Positions 2,110 through 23,000 of a stretch of 56,418 nt of DNA are shown piece by piece. A program made the translations under genes and the position numbers. Location of the stretch: positions 1 to 56,418 of IMG/VR virus record IMGVR_UViG_3300049595_000896; one strand, given 5' to 3'. Numbering within the stretch: position 1 is the first letter of the stretch; every line of letters starts with the position of its first letter. The notes under the pieces are model-generated. The model saw only the letters and a list, made by a program, of their open reading frames with translations. It made no database searches and was not told the origin of the DNA. Source of the DNA: a virus.

Positions 2110-2301
2110 ATGCGGCTCTATATGCTGCGCTACGCCTCTGGTCGCGCCTATCGCACGGCTAATGGGGAGTATGTTTACTTCAATTCCAAGGACGAGGCCA
2201 AGCGTCAGAGGGACGCGCTTAACCGCGCTGTCACTGGCGAGAAGGCTGTCGTCAGCCTTGGACCGGACCATAAACGCTGGCGCTCAGGCCGCACGGCCTG
2301 A
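2110..2301 (+). CDS. Small basic hypothetical protein
   Basis: The product has 63 residues, with ATG 2110 preceded by AAGGAG at 6 nt spacing. It is basic with many Arg/Lys and Tyr (RYASGRAYRTANGEYVYF), then a helical KDEAKRQRDALNRAV segment. It has the look of a small phage nucleic-acid or host-factor binding protein, but no family is recognised. It directly precedes the MoxR operon. Confidence 0.65.
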   Translation: MRLYMLRYASGRAYRTANGEYVYFNSKDEAKRQRDALNRAVTGEKAVVSLGPDHKRWRSGRTA

Positions 2302-2350: not shown

Positions 2351-3463
2351 ATGCATGCTTCACTTCTCTCGCAGACCCTTCAGGCTCTGCATAAAATTAA
2401 TCGCTCACTGTGCATCGAAGGGCCACCCGGTGGTGGCAAAACCAGCGTGGTGCGTCAGACTGCGCGCCTTATGGCGGGGTGCACTAACGACAGCGTTCAC
2501 CCTGACGAGCACATGGTCGGTTCGATCACGGTCTACACGGGCCAGACGCAGGCGTTTGGGTACAGTGAGGTCCACCTGCCGACCAAGACTGTCGATGACT
2601 TCGGCATACCGGACATGCTTAACAAGGGTGAGACTATCGCCTACCGCCTGTTCGAGTGGTTCCCTGCTATACACCGCACGGATATCCCTGAGCGTGGCAT
2701 ACTGTGCTTCGACGACCGTAACCAAGCGAGCGCTGACATCCAGAAGGTTCTGGCCAATATCATTCAGGCTAGGACGCTGCATGGCGTCATGCTTAAGCCC
2801 GGCTGGCAGGTGGTCTCTACGGGTAACAGGCAGTCGGACAGGGCGGGTGCTGGCCGTGTGCTCAGCCACCTGCGTAACCGCGAGTCTGTGGTCAACTTCG
2901 AGACGAGCCTCAAGGACTGGATCGCCTATGCTGAGGGTGCTGGGGTGCACCCTTACGTTGTGAGTTTCCTGCGGTTCAGGCCGGATCTGCTGCATGCCTT
3001 TGACCCTGACAAGCCCGCCTCGCCTACCCCTAGGTCATGGGCTGAGGGCGTTGCGCCTCTTATCGGCGTAGTGCCTGACGATGCTGAGCACGAGTTGTTC
3101 TGCGGCGCTGTAGGCGATGGCGCTGCGGCTGAGTTCGTGGGGTTCCTGCGTATCGCTAGGAGCCTGACTAGCCCGGACGTTATCCTCAAGGACCCTGACA
3201 ACTCGCCTATCCCCACTGACACGGCTACGCTCTACGCCCTTACGGGTGCGCTTGCTCACCGTGTGGTCAAGGCTCCGACCCTCCCTGACGCGCAGGTTAT
3301 GGCTTCGGCTGTGCTGCGTTACGTGACGCGCTTTGCGTCGATGGGTCGTGCTGAGTTCGGCGTCATTGCTGTATCCAGCATGCTTAAGCGCAGTGATCTC
3401 AAGGCTGCGTCCTTCCCCGGCCTGCCTGAGTTCTTCATGAAGAACCAGTCGGTCATGTTCTGA
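2351..3463 (+). CDS. MoxR-type AAA+ ATPase
   Basis: The product has 370 residues. ATG 2351 is chosen because AAGGAG lies 9 nt upstream; a longer in-frame extension would overlap the gene at 2110. Walker A is GPPGGGKTS (residues 24-32), Walker B ends in FDD (D121, D122), a sensor-1 STGN lies at 156-159, and a PTPRSW segment follows. This is the MoxR branch of AAA+ ATPases, which usually act as chaperone-like remodelers with a VWA-domain partner. Such a partner is encoded two genes downstream (4380-5528), with a DUF3150-like protein between. The role in a phage is not established; options are remodeling of a host or phage complex during replication or takeover. Confidence 0.9.
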   Translation: MHASLLSQTLQALHKINRSLCIEGPPGGGKTSVVRQTARLMAGCTNDSVHPDEHMVGSITVYTGQTQAFGYSEVHLPTKTVDDFGIPDMLNKGETIAYRLFEWFPAIHRTDIPERGILCFDDRNQASADIQKVLANIIQARTLHGVMLKPGWQVVSTGNRQSDRAGAGRVLSHLRNRESVVNFETSLKDWIAYAEGAGVHPYVVSFLRFRPDLLHAFDPDKPASPTPRSWAEGVAPLIGVVPDDAEHELFCGAVGDGAAAEFVGFLRIARSLTSPDVILKDPDNSPIPTDTATLYALTGALAHRVVKAPTLPDAQVMASAVLRYVTRFASMGRAEFGVIAVSSMLKRSDLKAASFPGLPEFFMKNQSVMF

Positions 3464-3492
3464 TACACACATTTAACAGAGTGGAGATACCT

Positions 3493-4380
3493 ATGAAACT
3501 CAATGACAGGGCGTTGCTTGTGACGCTTAAGATCAGCCAGTGGGCTGGACGTAAGCACGATAAGCAGGTGACCAAGCAGGTCGCCAGTCAGCATGCAGCT
3601 GACACGAGCGTTGGCCGGTTCAACAAGTCGCTGCTGCCCGCTACAGGTTACCTCGAAGACGTGCACGCTATGACGTCCGCCATCCGCCAGATGGTCTACC
3701 AGAACACTATGGCGTGGGGCTCAGTCGACGGCACGAGACTGCTTCCTGTGGGCAATTATCTGGCGTTTACTGCTACGTTCAGGCGCATGCTTACGGAGCG
3801 GGAGGCTGCTGTCGAGCGCTTCCTGTCTGCTTATCCCCGCCTCAAGGAGGAGGCTAAACTCTTCCTGCCTAACGGGCTCTACAAGGAGGACGATTACCCT
3901 GACGTGGACACACTGCGGGGTAAGTTTGCGTGCTCTGTGGAGATGGGTCCGGTTCCTACCGATGACTTCAGGGTGCAGCTTGGCGATGCTGAGCTTGCAC
4001 AGATTAAGGCTGACGTTGTCGCACGTACTGAGGCCAGCATGAGGGACGCCATGCGTGAGGTCTGGCAACGGCTCTATGACCGGGTCAAGCACATGGCTGA
4101 CAAGCTGCAGGCCATCGACGACACAGCGGACGTTGAGGGCAGGGGCAAGGCGCGGCTGCACGAGAGCACTATAGAAAACATACGTGAGATATGTGAGCTA
4201 CTGCCCCGGCTTAATATTACCAACGACCCTGACCTTGAGGCCATGCGCCAGCGTGTGGCTGACTCGTTGGGCACAGTTGAGACTGACGCGCTCAAGGCCG
4301 ACCCACTATTCCGCGAGCGCACTAAGACTGAAGCGCAGTCTATCATGGACGCGATGGCTACTTTCATGGGAGGCGTGTAA
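3493..4380 (+). CDS. DUF3150-like protein of the MoxR/VWA operon
   Basis: The product has 295 residues. ATG 3493 follows a GGAG site by 6 nt, which is better than the GTG at 3481. The N-terminal segment LVTLKISQWAGRKHD resembles the start of DUF3150 proteins, which are found beside MoxR and VWA genes in phages and mobile elements; the assignment is from memory of the family. The remainder is predicted largely helical. The stop overlaps the next start (TAATG), so it is translationally coupled to the VWA protein. It is probably the third component of that complex. Confidence 0.6.
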   Translation: MKLNDRALLVTLKISQWAGRKHDKQVTKQVASQHAADTSVGRFNKSLLPATGYLEDVHAMTSAIRQMVYQNTMAWGSVDGTRLLPVGNYLAFTATFRRMLTEREAAVERFLSAYPRLKEEAKLFLPNGLYKEDDYPDVDTLRGKFACSVEMGPVPTDDFRVQLGDAELAQIKADVVARTEASMRDAMREVWQRLYDRVKHMADKLQAIDDTADVEGRGKARLHESTIENIREICELLPRLNITNDPDLEAMRQRVADSLGTVETDALKADPLFRERTKTEAQSIMDAMATFMGGV

Positions 4381-5528
4381 TGACTAGCAGGAAGCCCAAG
4401 CGTATCACTCAGTCCGAGTTTGACACACTCATAAGCCGCACACGTAGTGTCCTGACACTGGAGCACCCCTTCTTTGGGGTGCTTTCCTTTGGCATGGAGC
4501 ACGTGCTGGACGACACTATTAACCCGCCTACTGCGTGCGTTGATGGCATGACTGTCAGCTATCACCCGGAGTTCGTCGCGTCCCTCACTAAGGACGAGAT
4601 GTTGTTCCTAGTCGCGCATGAGTGCATGCACCCCATGCTTGACCATATCGGACGCATGACAGGCCGGGAGCCTAAGCGTTGGAATATCGCCTGTGATATA
4701 GTTGTTAACCACTATCTCAAGCAGGACAATATCGGTCGTATGCCTGAGTGTGGCATCACTGACCCCGCGCTATTCGCCAAGGGTCAGGGTGTGGTTGAGG
4801 TTATATACAACTTGCTTGAGTCAAACGAGGGTCAGGGGCAGGGTCAGTCCACCCCTAGCCACGACCAGATGGACGCCATGCAGGAGGCTGACGCCTCTGA
4901 AGGGCAGGTTCAGAGCAAATGGAAGCCCCTTGTTATGCAGGCTCAGGCTGCTGCAAAGCAGGCTGGCAAGCTATCGGGTGCGCTAGAGCGTCTGGTCAAG
5001 CAGGCTGTCGTGTCGCCTCCTAACTGGCGTCAGATCATGGCTGAGTGGATGTCACGTAGTGCGATGGGTGACCAGCGCACATGGTCGCGTCCGTCCAGAC
5101 GCATGGCTGCTGCGGGTATGTATAGACCAGCCACCTACAGTGAGGCTATCGGCGAGCTAGTTATAGCAGTCGACTGTTCAGGGTCAGTCAGTCCTGAGTT
5201 GCTCGACAAGTTCATGGCGCATGTGCGTGCGCTATGCGAGGACATCCAGCCTAAGCGTATACATATTGCGTACTTCCACCACACAGTGTTCCGCGTCGAC
5301 AGTTACGAGAACGCGGACGATATGGTCATCAACATAACCGAGTCGGGAGGGACGGCGTTCTCGCCTATCTTCCGGCGGGTTGACGCGGACGGCATAGACC
5401 CCGTGTGCTGCGTCGTCCTGACTGACCTTGAGTGCAGCGACTATGGTCCTCAGCCGGGCTACCCCGTGCTGTGGGCGTCTACAACTGACGCCAAGGCCCC
5501 TTGGGGCCGCACTATCCGCATCGACTAA
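4380..5528 (+). CDS. Putative metallopeptidase with VWA-like domain (DUF2201 type)
   Basis: The product has 382 residues. The N-terminal half carries HECMHPMLDH (H80, E81, H84, H89), an HExxH zinc-peptidase signature. The C-terminal half carries a VWA-like fold with a MIDAS-type DCSGS (265-269) and a later TDLE segment. This two-domain layout is that of the DUF2201 family (putative metallopeptidase plus VWA-like). The middle is Gln-rich and probably a linker. It starts within the stop of the DUF3150-like gene (TAATG). VWA proteins normally present substrates to MoxR ATPases, so 2351-5528 probably encodes one machine. Whether the zinc site is active is unknown. Confidence 0.85.
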   Translation: MTSRKPKRITQSEFDTLISRTRSVLTLEHPFFGVLSFGMEHVLDDTINPPTACVDGMTVSYHPEFVASLTKDEMLFLVAHECMHPMLDHIGRMTGREPKRWNIACDIVVNHYLKQDNIGRMPECGITDPALFAKGQGVVEVIYNLLESNEGQGQGQSTPSHDQMDAMQEADASEGQVQSKWKPLVMQAQAAAKQAGKLSGALERLVKQAVVSPPNWRQIMAEWMSRSAMGDQRTWSRPSRRMAAAGMYRPATYSEAIGELVIAVDCSGSVSPELLDKFMAHVRALCEDIQPKRIHIAYFHHTVFRVDSYENADDMVINITESGGTAFSPIFRRVDADGIDPVCCVVLTDLECSDYGPQPGYPVLWASTTDAKAPWGRTIRID

Positions 5529-5551
5529 TCACACACAAAGGAGACTGACAC

Positions 5552-6286
5552 ATGGCTATTGTTCGTATGACTGAGCTGGTTATCGAGAGCATGTCGCGTA
5601 ACCTTGTCCAGCTGCGTAAACCTGAACTCGCCGTGCTTGAGGCTGCGCGTCCCATGAAGGCGTTCGCAGATCTGTATAACTGGATGGTGCCTGACACCCT
5701 CAAGGCGCAGCTGGATCAGTTACCCCCGCGGTATCGTCCGGCGATGATTGATAAGATACATATCAGGTTCGCCGGCACGAGTGTTGTTACTTTCATCACT
5801 GCTTCTGAGATTAACGGGTATAATCAGAGGGAGCCGGCTAAGACGGTCTATGCGCTTCTATCTCCCGGCCACCAGAGTATTATCAGGTCGGGTCAACCCG
5901 TTGTTCTTGGTAATATATCCCTCAGCCAAGACGCGATGGAGTTCAAAGCCCTTGGTGAGATAACGGAGATCCACGAGAGCATACGTGACGCATACTGTGC
6001 AGCGAGGGCGTATGCTGATAAAATAGTAGAGTACAATGCAGAAACGCGGCGGCATATTGCTACGCTGCAGAACTACCTGCAGAACCAGCCTTCACTCAAC
6101 AAGGCTGTGGCTAACATGCCTGCTATCAGGGCGTTCATCAACCCTAACCACCTCGACAAGATGGCTGAACGGGTTGAGCGTGCGCCTCGTAAGACGTCCG
6201 AACCCAAGGCTAAACAGCTGCCAGCGACGCCTGCTGACAGCGCCATGACTGAGCTTGTCATGGTCGCCGCTCAGACACGGGTCTAA
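5552..6286 (+). CDS. Hypothetical protein following the MoxR/VWA operon
   Basis: The product has 244 residues, with ATG 5552 after AAAGGAG. The N-terminal half mixes strands and helices; a helical stretch (about 140-195) is followed by a charged, probably disordered tail with KAKQLPATPADS. No family is recognised. The gap to the VWA gene is only 23 nt, so it probably shares that transcript and may be an accessory part of the same system. Confidence 0.7.
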   Translation: MAIVRMTELVIESMSRNLVQLRKPELAVLEAARPMKAFADLYNWMVPDTLKAQLDQLPPRYRPAMIDKIHIRFAGTSVVTFITASEINGYNQREPAKTVYALLSPGHQSIIRSGQPVVLGNISLSQDAMEFKALGEITEIHESIRDAYCAARAYADKIVEYNAETRRHIATLQNYLQNQPSLNKAVANMPAIRAFINPNHLDKMAERVERAPRKTSEPKAKQLPATPADSAMTELVMVAAQTRV

Positions 6287-6483: not shown

Positions 6484-6990
6484 ATGGTTGCGTCTGGCCC
6501 GATCATTCAACAAGCTATGACACGGGTCAGACGATCCTTCCCTTACTTTACAGACGATATGCTCAGGCTAAAGGACCGGTCCAAGCGGACGGTCATACCA
6601 CGTCAATACATGTGGTATCTATTGAGATTATACGGGCGAAGTTATCCTTGGATCGCTCGCAACACCGGAGGGTGGGACCACACGACTATTATGTGGGGCG
6701 TCAAGGCGCATGTGCGTGCGATGCAGAACCCTGAGAGCAGCCTCTATAAAACAGGTGTCAGATTGCAGAACACTACAGGTTTACTGGAAGAGATTGAGCG
6801 GCTGGAGCGTGAGATTAAACAACTCAGCGACACAGCGGAGGACATGCAGCGTCAGCGTCTGGCGTTGGTATATCAACTTAATGATCTGAGGGAGAAAGCT
6901 TATGGATTATCGAGTGAAGAACCGTCTCGCAGACAAACTCATGAGGGCGTTGATCGCGCTCATGCACCATCGCACCAACCCAAAGGCTAG
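6484..6990 (+). CDS. DnaA domain IV-like DNA-binding protein with coiled coil
   Basis: The product has 168 residues. Residues 34-80 match the C-terminal DNA-binding domain of the initiator DnaA: a PRQ segment (39-41), a helix-turn-helix, and GGWDHTTIM (62-70), equivalent to the DnaA signature GGRDHTTV. There is no AAA+ ATPase domain, so it cannot be a complete initiator. Residues about 97-140 form a Leu/Glu/Arg-rich coiled coil, suggesting a dimer. It could bind DnaA-box-like sites, recruit or compete with host DnaA, or act at the phage origin; it lies just before the DNA polymerase gene. Its last 89 nt overlap the next gene in another frame. Confidence 0.8.
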   Translation: MVASGPIIQQAMTRVRRSFPYFTDDMLRLKDRSKRTVIPRQYMWYLLRLYGRSYPWIARNTGGWDHTTIMWGVKAHVRAMQNPESSLYKTGVRLQNTTGLLEEIERLEREIKQLSDTAEDMQRQRLALVYQLNDLREKAYGLSSEEPSRRQTHEGVDRAHAPSHQPKG

Positions 6991-7264: not shown

Positions 7265-9133
7265 ATGGACATAGTTACCATAGACTTCGAGACCTACTAC
7301 GACAAGACATATAGTTTATCGAAGATGACGACGGAGAGTTATATCCGTGACCCTCGGTTCGAGATCATCGGGGTTGGGGTTAAGATAAACAACTACGCCA
7401 CAGACTGGTATAGCGGGGAGAACTTCGGGCGCGTACTCACTGGGCTTGACTACTCCGACAAGGCCATACTCGCACACAACGCTGCGTTCGACGGGGCTAT
7501 TCTGTCGTGGAAGTTTGGAATAAAACCAAAGCTCTGGCTGGATACTCTGTCCATGGCCCGGGCTAAGGTCGGACTTATCCAGAGCATATCGCTGGCGAAC
7601 CTCGTCAATGCGTTCGGGTTAGGGGCCAAGGGTGTGGAGGTTGTGAACGCACTGGGTAAACGCCGCGCTGAGTTTACACCCAACGAACTGTCCAAGTATG
7701 GCGATTACTGCATCAACGACGTCGAGCTTACGTACAAGCTGTTCAAGGTACTGGCCAAGGACTACCCCGCCAGTGAACTCGCCGCCATCGACGCAGCCCT
7801 AAGGCTATACACTGAGCCGGTCATTGAACTGGACAGGGAGAGGCTGGCCACGCACCTCAGCACGGTTAGGGACCACAAGGCTAACCTCCTGTCGATGCTC
7901 GCAGAACAGGGCGTTACGCAGGAAGATCTCATGTCTAACCAGAAGCTGGCGCACCTGCTGCTGGATCTGGGCGTCGAGCCGCCGACCAAGGTCAGCCCCA
8001 CTACAAACGAGAACACGTTCGCCTTCAGCAAGACAGACCTAGAGTTTACTGACTTGCTCAACCATGAGAACCTGACTGTGCAGAACGTCGTGGCTGCAAG
8101 GCTTGGCGTTAAGAGCACGCTCGACGAGACCAGAACCGAAGCGCTGCTCGGGGTGCAGGAGCGTGGCCCCCTGCCTGTTATGCTGCACTACTATGGCGCA
8201 CACACAGGGCGGTTCTCTGGTGGCGACAAGCTGAACATGCAGAACCTGCCACGTAAGGGTGCTATCAGGCGGGCTATGCGTGCACCGGAGGGACATGTCT
8301 TTGGTGTGGTGGACAGCTCACAGATAGAAGCGCGGGTGCTGGCATGGCTGGCCAGTGAGGACGCCATCGTCGATGCGTTCCGTAACAAGCGGGATGTGTA
8401 CAGCGAGTTCGCGTCTAAACTTTACGACCGACCAATCACCAAGGCGGACGAGACGGAGAGGTTCCTAGGCAAGGTCTGCATCCTTGGTCTGGGGTACGGG
8501 CTCGGATGGGTCAAGCTGCAACTTATCCTTGCGTCTGGGGCGATGGGCAAGAAGATCAACCTGTCCAAAGAACAGTGCCAGCGCATTGTAAATAAGTACC
8601 GTGAGACTAACCACCGTATCGCAGGGCTATGGTGGCAGGCGGGGAAAGCACTGGAGATGTTGGATCGTAACCAGTCCTTCGTGCTCGCCAATAAATTTGT
8701 TTGCGAAGATAAATCTATACGCTTGCCGAACGGCATGTCTTTACAATACCCTCTGCTGCGCCACACCAAGAACGGGTTTGGCTACTGCGCTATGCCCAAC
8801 GCATTCAAGGCAATCATGAATGCAAGGCTGGCCGGCGAAGACATGGACGACCAACCGTGGAAGTACATCTACGGAGGGAAGGTCATTGAGAACCTTGTGC
8901 AGGCGCTGGCTACCATAATCATCAAGGAACAATGGATACGCATCAACGCCAGCAAAAAGTACAAGGTTGTCATGCAGGTGCACGACGAACTCGTTGCGAT
9001 TATACCAGAGAAGGAAGCAAAAGAAGGACTTGCATATATGATGGATATTATGTCAACGCCCCCTGCATGGGCGGCGGATCTGCCTGTAGCGTGTGAAGGT
9101 GCAACTGCTAAGTATTATGGAGACGCTAAGTGA
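7265..9133 (+). CDS. Family A DNA polymerase with 3'-5' exonuclease
   Basis: The product has 622 residues and synthesises phage DNA. The N-terminal exonuclease has DFETYYD (D7, E9), HNAAFD and YCINDVELTYK motifs. In the polymerase, motif A is DSSQIEAR (D350), motif B is RFLGKVCILGLGYG (R399, K403) and motif C is HDE (573-575). The residue at the position of E. coli Pol I Phe762 is Leu407. In viral family A polymerases this position is Phe, Tyr or Leu, and Leu has been linked in the literature to slower or more temperate replication styles. There is no 5'-3' nuclease domain. The GTGA overlap with the next gene suggests coupling. Confidence 0.97.
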   Translation: MDIVTIDFETYYDKTYSLSKMTTESYIRDPRFEIIGVGVKINNYATDWYSGENFGRVLTGLDYSDKAILAHNAAFDGAILSWKFGIKPKLWLDTLSMARAKVGLIQSISLANLVNAFGLGAKGVEVVNALGKRRAEFTPNELSKYGDYCINDVELTYKLFKVLAKDYPASELAAIDAALRLYTEPVIELDRERLATHLSTVRDHKANLLSMLAEQGVTQEDLMSNQKLAHLLLDLGVEPPTKVSPTTNENTFAFSKTDLEFTDLLNHENLTVQNVVAARLGVKSTLDETRTEALLGVQERGPLPVMLHYYGAHTGRFSGGDKLNMQNLPRKGAIRRAMRAPEGHVFGVVDSSQIEARVLAWLASEDAIVDAFRNKRDVYSEFASKLYDRPITKADETERFLGKVCILGLGYGLGWVKLQLILASGAMGKKINLSKEQCQRIVNKYRETNHRIAGLWWQAGKALEMLDRNQSFVLANKFVCEDKSIRLPNGMSLQYPLLRHTKNGFGYCAMPNAFKAIMNARLAGEDMDDQPWKYIYGGKVIENLVQALATIIIKEQWIRINASKKYKVVMQVHDELVAIIPEKEAKEGLAYMMDIMSTPPAWAADLPVACEGATAKYYGDAK

Positions 9134-14176: not shown

Positions 14177-14201
14177 GTGCGAGGGGTAGCACCCCTCGCA
14201 C
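14177..14201 (+). promoter_or_regulatory. Perfect inverted repeat before the PrimPol-helicase gene
   Basis: GTGCGAGGGG (14177-14186), TAGCA, CCCCTCGCAC (14192-14201): ten perfect pairs with a 5-nt loop, directly before the AAAGGG ribosome site of the gene at 14216. No T-run follows, so it is not a classical terminator. It could be an operator for the upstream XRE-like protein or an RNA element controlling primase translation. Confidence 0.75.
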
Positions 14202-14215
14202 GAAAGGGCTCGCAA

Positions 14216-17080
14216 ATGGACACGCTGGAGTTCTTCCGGCGAGTTCTTCCGTCTTCTGGGTATTACTGTGCCTTCAATGTGGACAACAGGCAGCACGGTT
14301 TTTTCTCAACAGTCGAAGAACTGGCTAGCATCTCCGTTCGCATGGACGAGATGGGGAGAAATACCTACTACGCGATATCATCTTTTATAGAAAAGAAGGG
14401 GAGGAAGCAAGCAAATGTCAAAGCAACCAAGGTCATCGCCCTCGATGTAGATGTCGGCAAGTACGACGCAGCCGGGGAGCTACGCAATAGTTATGCCACG
14501 TTGCAGGATGCAGGCGTAGCTGTCGCCCAGTTCATAACCAAGACAGGACTGCCAGATCCGCTGATGGTGTTCAGCGGCAATGGTCTGCACATGTACTGGG
14601 TAATGACACGCGACCTGACGCCCGAGGAGTGGCAGCCTCTGGCGTCTGCGCTCAAGATACTCGCCGCAAGGCATATCATAATCGACCCGGCAGTGACAGA
14701 GGACAGCGCCCGTGTGCTGCGTGCTGTCGGCATAACCAACAGGAACAGCGGCAAGAAGGCTCAGTTATTACGCGATGCGTCAGACGTCGACCCACTCGAC
14801 TTCGCCCGGGCTCTCGGCGCTTCAGGTGTAGCCCCCCCACCGCAGGCACAACCGTCCCGCAAGACTACACTACTGGATAACTTGGCTGTAAAGACTGACC
14901 ACCCGCTGGGTGTTGCGTCCGTCATCATGTCCAAATGCCAGCAGGTTAAGGACGCAGTCTCTAAACCAGAGAGCGTGCCCGAGCCCCTGTGGTATGCTCT
15001 TATAGGCGTGGCGGCGCACTGCGAGAACCCCGAACAGACAGCCATAGAGTGGAGCAAGGGGCACCCCGAGTTCTCTCATGTGGAGACTCTGCGTAAGCTG
15101 GAGCAGTGGAAGAAGAACGCCACCGGCCCGACACTCTGCACCAAGTTCGAGAGCGAGAACCCTGACGGATGTAAAAGTTGCAGGCTGAAGGGGCGTATCG
15201 CATCGCCTGTCCATACAGGGCAGACCTATAAAGAAGTTGACCAGAGCGCAGCACCCGACCCCATAGCGCAGGCAGTCCCGCTTCCCAAGCCGTTCAAGCG
15301 CACGGCGCAGGGCATCAAGATGGTTATCGACGGCGTCGACACAGACGTATGTAGCTTCGACATCTACCCTACAAGCTATGGCAAGGACGAGATGCTGGGC
15401 TATGAAGTTGCGCGGTTTATGTGGGACAGATCCCATGTAGGATGGCAACCGCTTGTACTCAGGCAGGCGCTACTGACTGATGGGCACAGGGAGTTTGCTA
15501 CTGCACTGGCGGATCAGGGTATTATATTCCAGCACAAGAAGCTGACAGAAAGTTTCCAGTATATGCTGCGGTCCTATCTAGATAGCTTAAAGAAAACTAC
15601 CCGTATGACGAACCTGTATTCGTCAATGGGCTGGAAAGAAGACTTCTCCCAGTTTGTCATGGGCGACTCTGTAATACGTCTTGACGAGAGTGGGTCCGCA
15701 CAGGAAGAGCAGATCACTTTATCTGCACCCATGCAACGCCAAGGCTCTGAGTTGTGGGAGACCAAGGGCAGCCTTAAGGCGCAGGTGGACGGGCTCGCAG
15801 TACTCGAACGCGCAGATATGCCATGGCACATGTTCGCCATAGGCGTCATGCTAAGCGCCCCGCTCTACGAGTTCACCGGTCTCAAGGGGCTGACTGTCTC
15901 GCTCAACGGACCCACTGGCGGCGGCAAAACCCTGACGCAGTTGTGGGGCCAGAGCCTTTGGGGCAACCCGGACAAGCTGCACTTCACTTCTAAGTTCACA
16001 ATCAACGCGCTGTTTAACCGTATGTCGCTCTACCGCAACATGCCGATGACTGTAGACGAAGCGACTATGATGAACCCCAAAGACATAGGGGACTTCCTGT
16101 ACTCAGTCACGCAGGGCGCAGACAAGATCCGCCTTAACCGCAACACTGAAGAGCGCGACAGCAAGCCTTACTTCATACCTGTTGTACTCAGTACCAACAC
16201 AAGCATCGCATCGATGCTGATCTCTGCGGGCTCAGAGACAGAAGCCCAGATGGCCAGACTATTGGAGATAAACATACCATCGCATCCGCTGTTCTCCCGG
16301 GACAGCAACGCAGGCAAGATGATCTACAACCATATACATAATAACTACGGACACATAGGCCGGGCGTTTGTGTCCAAGCTGCTGGAGCTAGGACCGCAGT
16401 CCCTCAAGGACATGATTAACCGGCACTATGATCTGTTCAAAAAGAAATACAAAGCCAGCTTTGGCGGGCAGGAGAGATACTGGGAGGCGGCGGTTGTGCT
16501 TGCCGACATGGCCTTCCACCTTGCCCACAGCTGGGGCCTTGTGCCGTTCAAGTACGAACGCTGCATAGAGTGGATGCTCATACAACTGGGAGCGATACGC
16601 AAGGCTGTGGCCGACATCAAGCGCGACACGTTTGACCTGATCTCCGAGTACGTCAACGACCATGCGTCTGTGCTTGTGACCGTTATGCATACAGCAGGGA
16701 TGAAGCCGCAGGCAGACCACCTGCGCATGCCCCGGGAGGACATACGTATAAGGCTGGACCTCTACAGGAAGTCGCTTAACGACAGGTTCGACAAGGGTAC
16801 CATGCTCATGGACCGCGTCCACTTCCGTCGTTGGCTCGCAGAGAAGCGGTACGATTACCGTACTGTACTGCAGGACCTCAACGCTGAGAATGTCATTGCC
16901 AGTCCGAAGAGTGGCAAGGCTTATCTTGGCAAAGACACAGTCGCCAAGACTGCACAGACCTACGTTATAGGAGTGAACCTCAACCATCCGCGCCTTGTCG
17001 GTATCATCGACGACACCGAAGCATCCATCATGGACCTGACGCTAGGTCAGCTTCACTCTGTGCCTTCGTCAAGTCCGTAG
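14216..17080 (+). CDS. PrimPol-helicase fusion (replicative primase/helicase)
   Basis: The product has 954 residues from ATG 14216, preceded by AAAGGG. The N-terminal archaeo-eukaryotic-type primase domain has LDVDVG (D77, D79), SGNGLHMYW (H125) and a VTEDSARVLRAVG segment. A cysteine-containing linker (CTKFESENPDGCKSC) follows. The C-terminal half is a DUF927-like ATPase with Walker A GPTGGGKT (K571) and Walker B VDEAT (D614, E615). It should prime and unwind DNA for the family A polymerase. Its last 28 nt overlap the end of the opposite-strand polyvalent gene. Confidence 0.9.
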   Translation: MDTLEFFRRVLPSSGYYCAFNVDNRQHGFFSTVEELASISVRMDEMGRNTYYAISSFIEKKGRKQANVKATKVIALDVDVGKYDAAGELRNSYATLQDAGVAVAQFITKTGLPDPLMVFSGNGLHMYWVMTRDLTPEEWQPLASALKILAARHIIIDPAVTEDSARVLRAVGITNRNSGKKAQLLRDASDVDPLDFARALGASGVAPPPQAQPSRKTTLLDNLAVKTDHPLGVASVIMSKCQQVKDAVSKPESVPEPLWYALIGVAAHCENPEQTAIEWSKGHPEFSHVETLRKLEQWKKNATGPTLCTKFESENPDGCKSCRLKGRIASPVHTGQTYKEVDQSAAPDPIAQAVPLPKPFKRTAQGIKMVIDGVDTDVCSFDIYPTSYGKDEMLGYEVARFMWDRSHVGWQPLVLRQALLTDGHREFATALADQGIIFQHKKLTESFQYMLRSYLDSLKKTTRMTNLYSSMGWKEDFSQFVMGDSVIRLDESGSAQEEQITLSAPMQRQGSELWETKGSLKAQVDGLAVLERADMPWHMFAIGVMLSAPLYEFTGLKGLTVSLNGPTGGGKTLTQLWGQSLWGNPDKLHFTSKFTINALFNRMSLYRNMPMTVDEATMMNPKDIGDFLYSVTQGADKIRLNRNTEERDSKPYFIPVVLSTNTSIASMLISAGSETEAQMARLLEINIPSHPLFSRDSNAGKMIYNHIHNNYGHIGRAFVSKLLELGPQSLKDMINRHYDLFKKKYKASFGGQERYWEAAVVLADMAFHLAHSWGLVPFKYERCIEWMLIQLGAIRKAVADIKRDTFDLISEYVNDHASVLVTVMHTAGMKPQADHLRMPREDIRIRLDLYRKSLNDRFDKGTMLMDRVHFRRWLAEKRYDYRTVLQDLNAENVIASPKSGKAYLGKDTVAKTAQTYVIGVNLNHPRLVGIIDDTEASIMDLTLGQLHSVPSSSP

Positions 17081-20000
17081 ATGTTTATCAGGTCTTCGAC
17101 CATACCCTTGGAAGCCTCGGGGGCGACCTTGAGATAACGTGCGGCGGCGGGTGTCGCAGCCTCCTTGGCTGACTTGATTGCGTTCCTCTCGAAGTCACGG
17201 ATGAAGAACTCCGTGCCTCTGGCTCCCTCGTTGAACCTGCGTACATCCTCCAGAGTTTCGCGCATACGGGCATAGTCTTTCTTGAGGTAAGCCTGCACGT
17301 ATCTGGAACGGAAGTCGGCTTTGAGTGCCTTGGCGTAGTCTGCTGCATATGTGCTAAGCCGGATCGCTGTGTTGCTATTCGCTGCTTCTGTTGGATAGAA
17401 GCCAAGCATGCGGCCAATGATGACCGTCATTGAGACATCGTTTGAAACGACCCTACCTTTCGCGTCCGTTATACGTCCGTCACTGAGATAGGTAAGTCCA
17501 TCCGCGAACCCTTTGATGCCAGACGATGGAGCGTTACGCAGGATCTCGGGCAAGGTAGCTTTCTCATACCCAACACCCAGTTGAGCAGCCCCCCAGTGCG
17601 CCAGCTGGAAGCTTGTATCAAGCGTACCGTACATGGCGGAGAAGACAGGACCAGCAAGCTCCATAAGTTCGCGGCCAGTGTCTGCGCCTGCGCGGGCTAT
17701 GCCCATTGCAGGGACGGGGGCCCCCATGCCTGTCTTGCTTGCGATATCCAGCCCAGCAAGGTTGGCGAGCCCGTTCATACCAACTGCACCAAGCCCCGGT
17801 GCTATTCCTTCCAGCATTTCCAGAGCCGCAGCTTCAATGCTGCCGAGCGGGATATCAAAGAACTGCGCAAGCGTGTCGATAAGATCAAACAAGTTCTCTG
17901 CAAACGGAAGACCTTTGAACCCAGCCAGTATCAGCACAGCCGCGAGATAATACATCTTCCCTTTGAGGGGCAGGGCGGCAACCATCTGCACCGTTATGAC
18001 CACGATCATCTTGTACATAAAGATGAACTGCGTGAAGTGGTTACGGAAAAGTTCCGGTCTGTTGTAAAGGCTGTAGTCGCCGTTAGTTTTATCGACTGCT
18101 GTTCCAGCCTGCCTGTAGACATCCTTGAACGCCTCGCTCTGGAGAAGCGCCAGTTTATTCTTTGCGGTAAATTCGGCTTCAGGTATTCCAGCAGCAACAG
18201 CGCGTTTTCTATACAGTCTATACGCTGCAAGAGCGGTTGCTCTGCGGCTGAGCTGCTCAGTATAAGTGAACATACCCATCCAAACTTTTTCGGCTTTAGC
18301 TTGGATGTTTGACTTGACGCCACCGCGTGCGGTCTGAAGAAGCGTGTTGGTCAGCGCCGGCTGGAGGTTGCCTTCTTCTGTTTGGTTGAGAAGGAACACA
18401 GCTTCATCAAACGTAAGTCCGTATTTGCCGTACTCATTTTTGTCGATCATCTGGCGCAGGGACTCTGCGTCATTGAAGACAAAATCCCTCAGCTGGTTCA
18501 GAGCTTGGATAACTTCCTGAGACGCCGCAGTCAGGCCGAACCCACCACCGTAACCACGCTGGGCGTTATGAGTGCCAAGGTACGGGATGACGTTGAATAC
18601 GATAGTTACGAGGTTGAGCAGGGCAGACGAGAAATTCATACCCAGTTGCAGCAGGACTGCAAAGTTCTTGAGCGGAGCCGCCGTCTCTGTCAGGAACCCC
18701 TGTGTGCTGTCTATGATATTAGTAGACTGCGCGTAGAAGGTAAGCAGTCTCTTGGCTTCGTCCCGATACCGCTCACCATATCCTTTGGTCTCTAGTTTCT
18801 CATTGCCGATCTTGATTATCTCGGGAGCGTTGGGCTTCCTGTCCGCCATGTGTACATAGCGGTAAGCATATTCAGCATAACGCTGAGCCGCAATTGTTAC
18901 CAGTGCTTGGTTGCCACTCGCCTTTGCGTCTTCTAGTTCCCGCTCCAGTCGCTTGAGCAGTTCCCTGTCGCCCCTCCAGTTCTTGTCGTTGGACATGATC
19001 TCGTCGGTGCGGAACGAGTACCGGTTCTTGGATGCAACATGTGCCCCGGTCTGCGTGTCAATACTCACGCTCTGTATAATATCCGGGTCCCAGCCAACCG
19101 TACCAGAACGCAGAAGAACGCGGCGGATGGCGTCTTCCATACCCGTCAGCGCCTGTATGACGTTGACTTGCTCCTGTGCAGTGAGGTTGACGTTGATCTT
19201 GGTCAGCGCCCGCAGGAAGTCGCTGAAGTCTATGGCATGACCAAGCGGCGGGTTCTTGGCCGTCTCGGATGTAGTGACACGGAACTTCACCGTTACAGAT
19301 TTCTCTGAGTAGTTATCCCGAGCATAGTCATCAGTCGGGAGCAGGAACTCCCGGTTCTCAAAAACAGACAGCCGGGAAGCAATCATGGTTGCTTCGTCTT
19401 CGTCCGCCGCCATGTAGAACGGAAGTTGTGACCTGATGCCATCACCAATAGTAACGACCCTGCCTGTGTCAGGATCGTACGCTTCCAGCCTGACATTCCA
19501 TTTGCCCCTGCGCAGCAGCGGCACGTAACCCATACCAATAGTGCGCTTGGCGTTCTGTTCCGCCAGTACCAATGTCTGCTCTTCAGCAGCCAAGTTGGTG
19601 AAGATAGGTTTGATGAACCCTATCTGATGACTTTTTGTGATCCCAAGCTGGTTCATCTCGGGAATCTTGTCGACGATATGTTTGAACGCAGGATCTTTAT
19701 AGTATTTGGCAGCAGGCGTATCCGCTGTGCCTTCCGCCCAGTCCTTGACCTTAGCCTTGTCATGCAAGGCCATCATCACTTCGACAACAAACTCCATACC
19801 CCTGCCGATAGTCTTGGCGGTGGGCAGTGAAACAACTTCGAGTTTGCCCTTGTCGTTCTCGGCGAGATGGATAAGCTCCATGTACTTGTCGCGCAGATCG
19901 TAGAAGAACTTGAGCTGGTCCGGGGTCAACGGCGCTTTGGACGCCGTCTGTATCCTTGCGAACTTGTCGTTAGTTTCTTTTATGAGTTCGAGATACCGCT

Positions 20001-23000
20001 CGTACTTGGACTGAAGTATGTCCTTGGTCTTCTCCTGCTCGACTGCAAGCAGTTCGTTGAAGATAATCCATTCCTTGCTATCTTCAGTAAGGCCCGGTAT
20101 CGCCTGCATTTTGAGAGCGGTCTGCGGTACTTTAAGCTGAGCAGCTTCCGCAGAGACATTTACCTCAAAGCCCTTCTTGAACATCTCTATGTCAGGCTTG
20201 GCCATGCCAAGGACTTCGTCCAAGTTCTTTGTGTTGAACACGAAGAAGCCTTGAGAGATGTCCCCTATCTCCCCGATCTTGTCGAGCTTACCCTGCTCTG
20301 CTTTATCCGTAAGACGGTTCTGCCTGTAGAGCGTGAAGAACGCCGCCATCTTGCCGGCCAGCAGCCGCTGTTCGTTCGTGGCGAACGCCGCAGACTGAGT
20401 CTTCTTTGTAAGGTTGTTGTACTTCTGAAGAAGCCGCTGCGTAAAGGACGACTGCTCTTTGAATAGATTATATAGCTCATTAATACCTTGGCTAAGGTCC
20501 CCGATACTGTCGAGAGACTGGACTTTTTCCAGTATCTTGGACGTCCCTTTCCCAAGGAAGCGCAACAGCTGGCGACTGGACGTGACCGCAGCAGAGGCCG
20601 AGCGGGGCAAGCGTTTGGACAGCGTGTTGTCCGCAGCCACTTCCGTCTTGAGATCCACAGCCCCAGCGATGGCAGCCGAGACGGAGCTAGGCTGTGGGCT
20701 AGCAGAAAAGCGACCAATAACAGCCTCAGTCGCCAGTTTCCGCATGTTCTGCTCAAGTATAGCCGGGCTGATGAATGTCGTGTCGCCGGTCCTGAGATAG
20801 CGTCCGGCTTGCCTTATGAAATAGCGCGCTGTCTCATCGCCGAACTTAATGCCGATCTTGTTGAGCGCATCCTTGATGGCATTCCACACTCTGAACAGTA
20901 TGTTGTTGTCGAGTTCTGCTGCATAGTCGCTTAGCACTTCTTCCGCAGCTTCTATCAGGTTCATGTTGAACCCGGCAGGCATTTTCGTGGCTTCGTAGAA
21001 ATTCTTATTCTTCGCAGTCAGGAACGCATCGCGAGCCTTGTCAGTAAAGTCTTTGTATATGGCTGCGTGACGCAGGACTTTTCTTTGGAAGCTCTGGTTT
21101 TCGTTAAGCAGTTTAAACAGAACGTCATTAAGTTCCTTGTCTGTCATGATTGAACGCAAGCCGAAGTGGCCCAGCGTTTCATGGGCCAGAACAAACTTCA
21201 GTTCCTGCTCTGTCTTTATCTGGTCCGTGAGGATGATGATCTCGTTGCCAAACGAGTATCCAGCAAAGGGCGTCGTGGCGAACGCGCCATCGGTACGCGC
21301 CGCATCAGCGCGCCTGTAGAGATCCGGGTTGGCGCGACGGAGAGCTTCGAGGTTCTTGTATACGTGGGCTGTTGGTTTGACATGCAGTTTGGCAAGGATT
21401 TTATTGACCGTATTTTTGGACTTGATCCAGTCAACAGCGGTCTTGATCTCACGTCCATCCGTGCGGATGAAACTTCCTTTGCTTGCGTTGGCTATTGCTT
21501 TTTCGAGCGCTTTGTATTCAAGCTTCCCATCTTTTTGCTGGAAAGAACTAAGCGGGCTTCCTAGGAACGATTCGCCTCCATCGATAGCAGGATCATAACT
21601 ATCTATCGCATCGTTTATATAATCTTTTACTGCGTTTGATCTTTTACTACCAGTTAGCTCTGGCATTACAGAACTGTTGTACTGAATCTCCAGAGCGCGG
21701 GCGAGAAAATCTATCGCACGTTTTGGTTTGCCAGACGTTAGATCTATAGTATCATCCTGCACCGGTTGGTTTTCAGGATCAGCCGGTCGTACTTTGGACG
21801 CTTCTTCGCTTACCCCAGCAGCTACACCACTTTTTTTATCTGCTTCAGGTATGTTTGTTACTCTTATACCTTCGCGTATGCCCGCCAGAAGTCCGTGCAA
21901 TTTAGCATACGTATACCAAGGACGTTCCCGTCCCTTAAATTTCCCCGTGTTAGCCCGGGCTTGTATAGATTCTCTTGCTGGCGCATTGAGCTTAATTAAG
22001 AATGCTGCGTTGAACAACTTGCGCTGTTGTTCGTTTAGTATCAGAGTATTCAGCCGATCAATAACAGCTTCTCTCTCAGCTTTCTTTTTGTCGGTAGCGT
22101 CCCAAGTTGTATCGAAGAACGCAGCGTCTACAATCTTCAGCGCGGCATTAGCAAACTGCTCGCTACCCGCTATCGTGGCGGTAAGTGTTGGGTTAGTGGC
22201 GTGTGCAACAAGCGCTTCTTGCGCCTGCTCTAAAGTCTTGATCTGTCGAACAGGCGCTTCTTTGGGAACCCCTTGATCCTTAGCGGGTCCTGTTTCGGCG
22301 GCGCCCTTTCGGGCAGCTGGCCCGGCTCGCCTTCCGCCAGCAGTTGCTCCAGCAGCTGCGGGTTGTTCTGCTCCAGCCACCGGCGCTGGGCCTCGCTCTT
22401 TAGGGACAAGGGCTGCCTCTCTCTTTCTAAACGCGGCGTATTCATTTTTTAATTGGCTGACAAGTTCTTCAAACTCTTGTTTCAAGACATTAGTGTCTTC
22501 ACCAGCGCTGGCGCGGGCTGCAAGATTTTCCAAGTCTGTCTTGAGTTTCTTAAGCGTATTGGAGACCGCGTATTTTCTATTGCCGACAGCTGCTATGACA
22601 TTTTGCGCAATGCTACGGATAGCAGCCGCAGGGTTTTTATCAAACAGGCGGACAGCTTTATCAGAATCCTCAATGGCGAATTGCAGTCGTTCATTTATAG
22701 CTAGTACGGACGTTTGATATTCTACATAACGCAGCCCTGCTTCTCGTCCGACTCTGACAGCGCCATCGTTTTCATCTACTGCGGCACCCTTAGGTTTTTC
22801 CTTTAGTGCTTCTCCCTTAGGCGCAGCAGCTTCAGGCGCAGCAGGTTTAGCCGCAGCTTCTTTACGAATCTTGGTTACCCCTCCACCGCCACCACCGGGA
22901 GGATTAGGATCGATGTCTTGCGATGCTGCAAATTGATCGAGCATACCGGCAAGCGCATCATAACTACTAAGTATTTCTTTTATAACCTTATTATAGGCAG

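Follow-up and report, generated by a model that had tools for sequence, protein, structure and literature searches.

Our analyses have identified, in the 56,418-base virus record IMGVR_UViG_3300049595_000896 of IMG/VR (analysed over its whole length and referred to below as the window), a conserved gene cassette in which a MoxR-clade AAA+ ATPase, a DUF3150-like protein and a protein combining HExxH metallopeptidase and VWA-like domains are encoded one after another, between a gene for a 63 amino acid (aa) protein and a gene for a 244 aa protein (gene 4). With a probability of roughly 45%, this cassette encodes an ATP-driven chaperone-peptidase machine that acts early on replication-linked or host proteins. 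The first-pass annotation of this DNA had singled out the region as its best candidate for an undescribed functional system. That description does not hold for the MoxR/metallopeptidase-VWA core pair, which is already known (viz. N4 gp24/gp25 and the jumbo phages) and is present in >500 sequenced phage records, but it stands for the extended cassette and its sharing with plasmids: in the literature searched, which excludes most subscription journals, we found no paper on DUF3150 and no described MoxR-DUF3150-VWA triad. Apparently new, then, are the DUF3150 third subunit, the 63 aa gene, the Nmad5-like gene 4, the presence of the triad on plasmids and bacterial contigs, and its placement among replication or plasmid genes. 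In phage records the pair is mostly annotated as "HNH endonuclease" or "hypothetical", and a third conserved subunit, together with plasmid carriage, turns attention away from virion assembly and towards a function that mobile DNA elements share.

The features of the cassette and a conserved downstream neighbour, with their positions in the window, are as follows:

2110..2301, + strand: 63 aa small protein, the conserved first gene of the cassette (67 bits with a hidden Markov model (HMM) of the relatives' upstream open reading frame (ORF))
2351..3463, + strand: MoxR-clade AAA+ ATPase, 370 aa (PF07728 above cut-off; phrog_1297)
3493..4380, + strand: DUF3150-like protein, 295 aa, helical, proposed adaptor (family HMM of phage relatives and plasmids)
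4378..4382, + strand: TAATG stop/start overlap, translational coupling of DUF3150 to VWA (from the sequence)
4380..5528, + strand: DUF2201 protein, 382 aa, with an HExxH metallopeptidase domain at the N-terminus and a MIDAS-bearing VWA-like domain at the C-terminus (PF13203, PF09967)
5552..6286, + strand: gene 4, 244 aa, divergent member of an Nmad5-like family (independent family HMM)
7265..9133, + strand: PolA-type DNA polymerase, a context neighbour outside the machine (phrog_17, E 7e-88)

The ORFs and coordinates of the four consecutive genes named in the first-pass annotation (MoxR, DUF3150-like, HExxH/VWA and the 244-residue gene) are correct, and Pfam and PHROG profiles back its MoxR and VWA domain calls; the 63 aa gene at 2110–2301, directly 5' of MoxR, had been overlooked. 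A good ribosome-binding site (RBS) is present for each of these four genes (viz. AAGGAG for MoxR, at ATG 2351, and AAAGGAG for gene 4, at ATG 5552), and the DUF3150-like protein probably starts at ATG 3493 (RBS GGAG) rather than at GTG 3481. The ATG of the VWA gene at 4380 overlaps the DUF3150 stop codon within TAATG, with a Shine-Dalgarno-like GGGAGG inside the upstream gene, bearing out the translational coupling that had been claimed for these two genes.

The ATPase matches the Pfam domain AAA_5 (PF07728) with 29.3 bits against a cut-off of 22 and phrog_1297 with an E value of 7e-56, and its profile also matches midasin (E 1e-14). Its motifs comprise Walker A (GPPGGGKT), Walker B (FDDR, with D122 in place of the usual glutamate), the sensor-1 asparagine and the conserved arginines R177/R228; Walker A, Walker B, sensor 1, the finger arginine and the dynein-related AAA_5 domain together place it within the MoxR clade. 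Among the aligned phage MoxR proteins Walker A is intact in 68 of 69, the remaining one being truncated there, and the Walker B D121 and the sensor-1 asparagine are invariant. These assignments bear on the possibility that the cassette is an auxiliary metabolic cobalt chelatase (CobS/CobT), as annotated for similar marine podophage pairs. A distant CobS-type match (phrog_249, E 0.0025) and the cobS/cobT calls in roseophages (PMC11288001) point in this direction, but phrog_1297 is the better match by >50 orders of magnitude and the partner is a DUF2201 protein, not CobT; the cobaltochelatase reading is thus largely refuted and we consider it barely credible. Aspartate occupies the Walker B glutamate position in all 69 triads from phages and in 63 of the 72 from plasmids or genomes, and glutamate is found there in all 8 MoxR-VWA pairs without DUF3150. 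Aspartate is nevertheless no strict mark of DUF3150: none of the 8 DUF3150-less pairs has it, yet 8 triads carry glutamate. The MoxR tree does not settle the polarity of this exchange.

The VWA protein matches PF13203 (133.8 bits, E 1e-38) and PF09967 (80.9 bits, E 1e-23), both above the curated cut-off, and the presence of both domains with intact HExxH and MIDAS motifs assigns it to the DUF2201 family. The residues H80, E81, H84 and D106, as well as the MIDAS residues D265, S267, S269, T325 and D349, are invariant in 83/83 phage homologues; D106 is a candidate third ligand. Compared with the PDB, the profile of this protein gives a weak match to the small protein MJ1213 (E 0.025). The label "HNH endonuclease" (PHROG 1314) is rejected here, as a Pfam scan at an E value of 10 gives DUF2201 domains and no HNH family; this label is also attached to the DUF2201 family elsewhere, viz. 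to phage records H2, H5 and L088 (6165-7307), N4 gp25 and many others, in addition to 4380-5528 of the window.

The DUF3150-like protein of the window falls below the cut-off of PF11348 (E 0.075), and 8 of the 21 aligned members of its family match this profile, the best being a Cupriavidus plasmid relative (E 1.1e-4, 22.1 of 24.9 bits). The plasmid homologues, including the Cupriavidus relative, are labelled DUF3150 by NCBI, and the family HMM links phage relatives and plasmids with E values of 1e-65 to 1e-95. An AlphaFold2 model of the protein is helical (pLDDT 84, pTM 0.52); its best Foldseek match in the PDB has an E value of about 0.5, and VIA-align matches of its C-terminal helical bundle (Z up to 11) were discounted as signs of kinship, since the bundle is a common arrangement. 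Because the protein is coupled to VWA, is kept with both partners, is helical and adjoins another AAA+ protein in planctomycetes, it is the obvious candidate for an adaptor between the MoxR ring and the VWA subunit.

The co-occurrence of these genes was examined in IMG/VR loci gathered through the VWA protein (80 loci) and the DUF3150 protein (5 loci), in which MoxR and DUF3150 were scored where at least 4.5 kb was available 5' of VWA, and PolA where at least 6.5 kb was available 3' of it. MoxR and DUF3150 are both found upstream of VWA in all 51 eligible loci, so that the association in related phages on which the first-pass proposal of a common system had been staked is present. The order MoxR-DUF3150-VWA is retained in 73 of 74 loci, with all genes always on the same strand, and in the loci that are long enough PolA (43/43) and a helicase (39/39) lie downstream of VWA. 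The 63 aa gene is found in 55 of the 69 loci with >250 nucleotides upstream of MoxR, usually a few nucleotides from the MoxR ORF. Some relatives have one or more genes inserted within the cassette, and most of those without an inserted gene show tight spacing or overlap of DUF3150 and VWA. In the MoxR tree the phage triads form one clade (support 89/97); the relatives are therefore one related set of phages, and the counts indicate retention rather than independent assembly. The distances of MoxR, DUF3150 and VWA are still correlated once PolA has been removed, with partial r values of 0.61-0.75 (n=38, permutation p 0.001).

Beyond these relatives, tblastn searches of 50,697 phage records gave 622 with the VWA protein, 523 with the ATPase and just 3 with DUF3150, the last all from one type of cyanophage. 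The full triad is found on plasmids of Burkholderia, Paraburkholderia, Cupriavidus, Caballeronia, Variovorax, Simplicispira and Rhodovastum, whereas Synechocystis pSYSA and Thermus pTHEOS01 have the MoxR-VWA pair only. Scanning genomes with DUF3150 yielded 79 loci, 68 of which have both MoxR and VWA nearby and include members of the Pseudomonadota, Bacteroidota, Cloacimonadota, Armatimonadota, Acidobacteriota, WWE3 and a planctomycete; of the remaining 11, 5 are cut by contig ends, and in the other 6 a distant homologue of planctomycete type lies next to a different AAA+ gene. On the planctomycete-type contigs (L175-L180) the distant DUF3150 adjoins genes, named here from their sequences, for an AAA+-like protein of ~500 aa, a ubiquitin-like small protein and an E1/ThiF-like protein, which take the place of MoxR and VWA. 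One contig of an actinobacterium metagenome-assembled genome (L112) scores at the level of the phage set (MoxR 613 bits, VWA 660 bits) and thus probably represents a phage of the same kind as the window.

The surroundings of the triad recurrently include genes for DNA replication and maintenance. In a Rhizobium phage the neighbours are PolA, RecB, VRR-NUC and SNF2; on a Brucella pecoris contig (L158) a DUF3150-MoxR-VWA set belongs to a prophage that also carries genes for terminase gpA, DNA ligase and the beta clamp of DNA polymerase III; and the triad is accompanied by RecT and a primase in Dechloromonas, by SSB, ParB and a ligase in Niastella, by a primase on a WWE3 contig and by a toprim primase on the Rhodovastum plasmid. 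The feature common to all triad contexts is mobile DNA, not virions. In the window, a podophage-like genome whose + strand carries the early genes up to ~17 kb and whose - strand carries the structural genes, the cassette lies in the early arm, on the strand opposite to the structural genes. This location bears directly on a role in virion assembly, with the cassette providing a chaperone and a maturation peptidase for structural proteins, as has been proposed for this domain pair where it occurs in jumbo phages (PMC7824862) and as is suggested by the MoxR protein p618 of ATV, which binds the VWA protein p892 and has been connected with the development of the tail (PMC4124505). The placement in an early/replication arm and the middle expression of the N4 counterparts speak against such a role, as does the triad's presence on plasmids, which have no virions, and in other non-viral contexts. 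Taken together, the early location, the middle expression in N4 and the occurrence of the triad on plasmids argue against virion assembly as a general role, and the placement among replication genes with the sharing by conjugative plasmids makes assembly of virus particles alone unlikely; we therefore hold this explanation to be improbable.

In the mechanism that we favour, the MoxR AAA+ ring would work together with the VWA subunit. The MIDAS site of this subunit would capture an acidic residue on a client or partner protein and its HExxH zinc domain would cleave the client or a released segment, while the helical DUF3150-like protein, made just before VWA by coupled translation, would bridge ring and VWA. 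In MoxR-VWA couples the AAA+ ring drives a conformational change in a VWA-bound client (PMC7159879), and with the intact zinc-peptidase signature of the VWA protein such remodelling may here end in cleavage. The machine would be expressed from the early replication arm and would act during the establishment and replication of the phage (or plasmid) genome, its most likely job being to remodel or clear a DNA-bound or replication-linked protein of phage or host rather than to build virions. Judged by the families involved, formation of a complex is highly probable and ATP-dependent remodelling is probable, with the predicted proteolysis somewhat less so; a replication or establishment target, suggested by the context, is plausible at a little under even odds. 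More tentative is the wider proposal that MoxR-DUF3150-(HExxH-VWA) constitutes a mobile-element system of phages, conjugative plasmids and integrated elements in several phyla, which would have lineage-specific partners (the 63 aa and Nmad5-like proteins) and would in general remodel replication or establishment complexes rather than assemble virions.

Several observations weigh against the proposed replication-linked machine. Aspartate at the Walker B glutamate position in all phage triads may slow hydrolysis. The partial correlations among the three proteins are lowered in the helicase subset (n=31; DUF3150-VWA r 0.29), and these correlations could reflect physical linkage. As gene order in phages is inherited in blocks, the 43 loci with PolA nearby, all from one lineage, count as a single observation. 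Moreover, the Burkholderiales triad lies beside VirB4/VirB11-like type IV secretion system (T4SS) genes (39 loci) and PRTRC genes. The arrangement in L092 and other Burkholderiales, with the triad between PRTRC genes and VirB11/VirB4-type conjugation genes, is recurrent in large mobile elements of this order. T4SS neighbours are among the features that suggest a role in counter-defence or host take-over, in which the machine of phages and conjugative plasmids would, shortly after their DNA has entered the cell, dismantle or cleave a defence complex or a regulator of the host. Its presence in both kinds of element, its early or leading location and the proposal that phage zincin peptidases cut host proteins (PMC7824862) agree with this explanation. 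Anti-defence genes are usually patchy, however, whereas the cassette is present in every long relative and gp24/25 are counted among the core genes of N4-like phages, and no PADLOC-related partner is found; counter-defence is hence a possible but rather doubtful alternative.

The cassette might also be a resident conflict or superinfection system, directed against competitors, of the type that joins MoxR, vWA and a third component (VMAP, iSTAND). The same three-part logic of a MoxR protein, a peptidase-fused vWA and a third conserved protein is evident in both (PMC7159879, PMC12839542), but the P-loop of the window's MoxR lies at residues 24-31, and the 23 residues before it leave no room for the N-terminal region with WxhapG and PsWRxa motifs by which VMAP MoxR proteins are defined (PMC7159879). 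There is also no iSTAND/VMAP match, variable effector or PADLOC hit, and the third gene is DUF3150-like, without a PADLOC or Pfam STAND match, so that a system of this type appears unlikely.

Gene 4 had been described as unknown, and on its own it indeed gives no match by tblastn in phages or in Pfam, PHROGs and the IMG/VR scan. It is no random neighbour, however, since its sequence identifies it as a divergent member of a conserved Nmad5-like family. A gene of ~225 aa (MATVRFS...) is found downstream of VWA in 71 of 82 loci, and a family HMM built without the window gives 25.7 bits for gene 4 (E 3.6e-6) and 41 bits for a close relative of gene 4 in L002; the highest score among 6,312 reversed decoys was 12.5 bits. 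The hhalign comparison with the same-position gene of the relatives (97%) likewise gives homology, and the view of gene 4 as an unrelated orphan is rejected. PF18757 (Nmad5) matches 24 of 48 family members (best E 1.7e-5) and not gene 4 itself, and structural neighbours of the gene-4 model in BFVD include Nmad5-named proteins (probability up to 0.91, TM about 0.35); in the PDB the best Foldseek E value is about 0.5, and VIA-align gives Z of at most 4.1 for the family. As the annotated genes of the window contain no hypermodification pathway, gene 4 is named only "Nmad5-like". N4 gp38, N4 gp41 and Erwinia S6 gp062 are unsupported as homologues, and SBVP1_0064 of Vibrio phi 1, a true Nmad5 by its E value of 5e-11, scores only 11 bits with the gene-4 family. 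None of the genome contigs from the DUF3150 scan has a member of this family. We regard the 63 aa gene and gene 4 as lineage-specific partners of the cassette.

Three other ORFs of the window were noted. Between the cassette and PolA (6484-6990) lies a gene for a 168 aa protein that combines a DnaA domain IV helix-turn-helix (PF08299, E 4e-10) with a coiled-coil tail and is possibly an origin-binding protein. A 967 aa primase-helicase-like protein (14177-17080, + strand) resembles in its C-terminal part the replication helicases of Staphylococcus pathogenicity islands (PDB 8tch, 5dgk), and a 2949 aa ORF (17053-25902, - strand) at the junction of the early and structural arms has no relative by PDB sequence search.

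The cassette can be compared with several known systems. N4 gp24 (AAA+) and gp25 (vWFA, DUF2201), which belong to the core of N4-like phages (PMC4193335, PMC7650795) and are middle transcripts (PMC4193335), represent the Schitoviridae; they are homologous to the window proteins by HMM (E 1e-44, 9e-55), adjacent, and located in the middle/replication region. They differ in having no DUF3150 between or beside them in the stretch examined, no close gene-4 homologue, and DE rather than DD at Walker B; the searched portion of the text of the CRISPRi-ART paper holds no entry for genes of a gp24/gp25-type cassette. E. coli RavA-ViaA and eukaryotic midasin likewise unite a MoxR/midasin-type AAA+ protein with a MIDAS-bearing VWA partner, but they have other accessory domains and partners without a HExxH domain. 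ATV p618/p892 (PMC4124505) offers the same virus-encoded pairing of a MoxR ATPase with a stimulating VWA partner, but no metallopeptidase domain is reported and the pair is tied to virion tails. The MoxR and metallopeptidase-vWA pair of group 2.2 jumbo phages, for which virion assembly with peptide processing was proposed (Iyer et al., 2021; PMC7824862), agrees with the window in domain architecture and pairing, to which the window adds the DUF3150 third subunit, the replication arm and plasmid carriage. The plasmid triads of Burkholderiales, Variovorax and Rhodovastum lie beside T4SS/PRTRC genes, not PolA, and lack a detectable gene-4 family member, but all three of their proteins are homologous to those of the window and stand in the same order.

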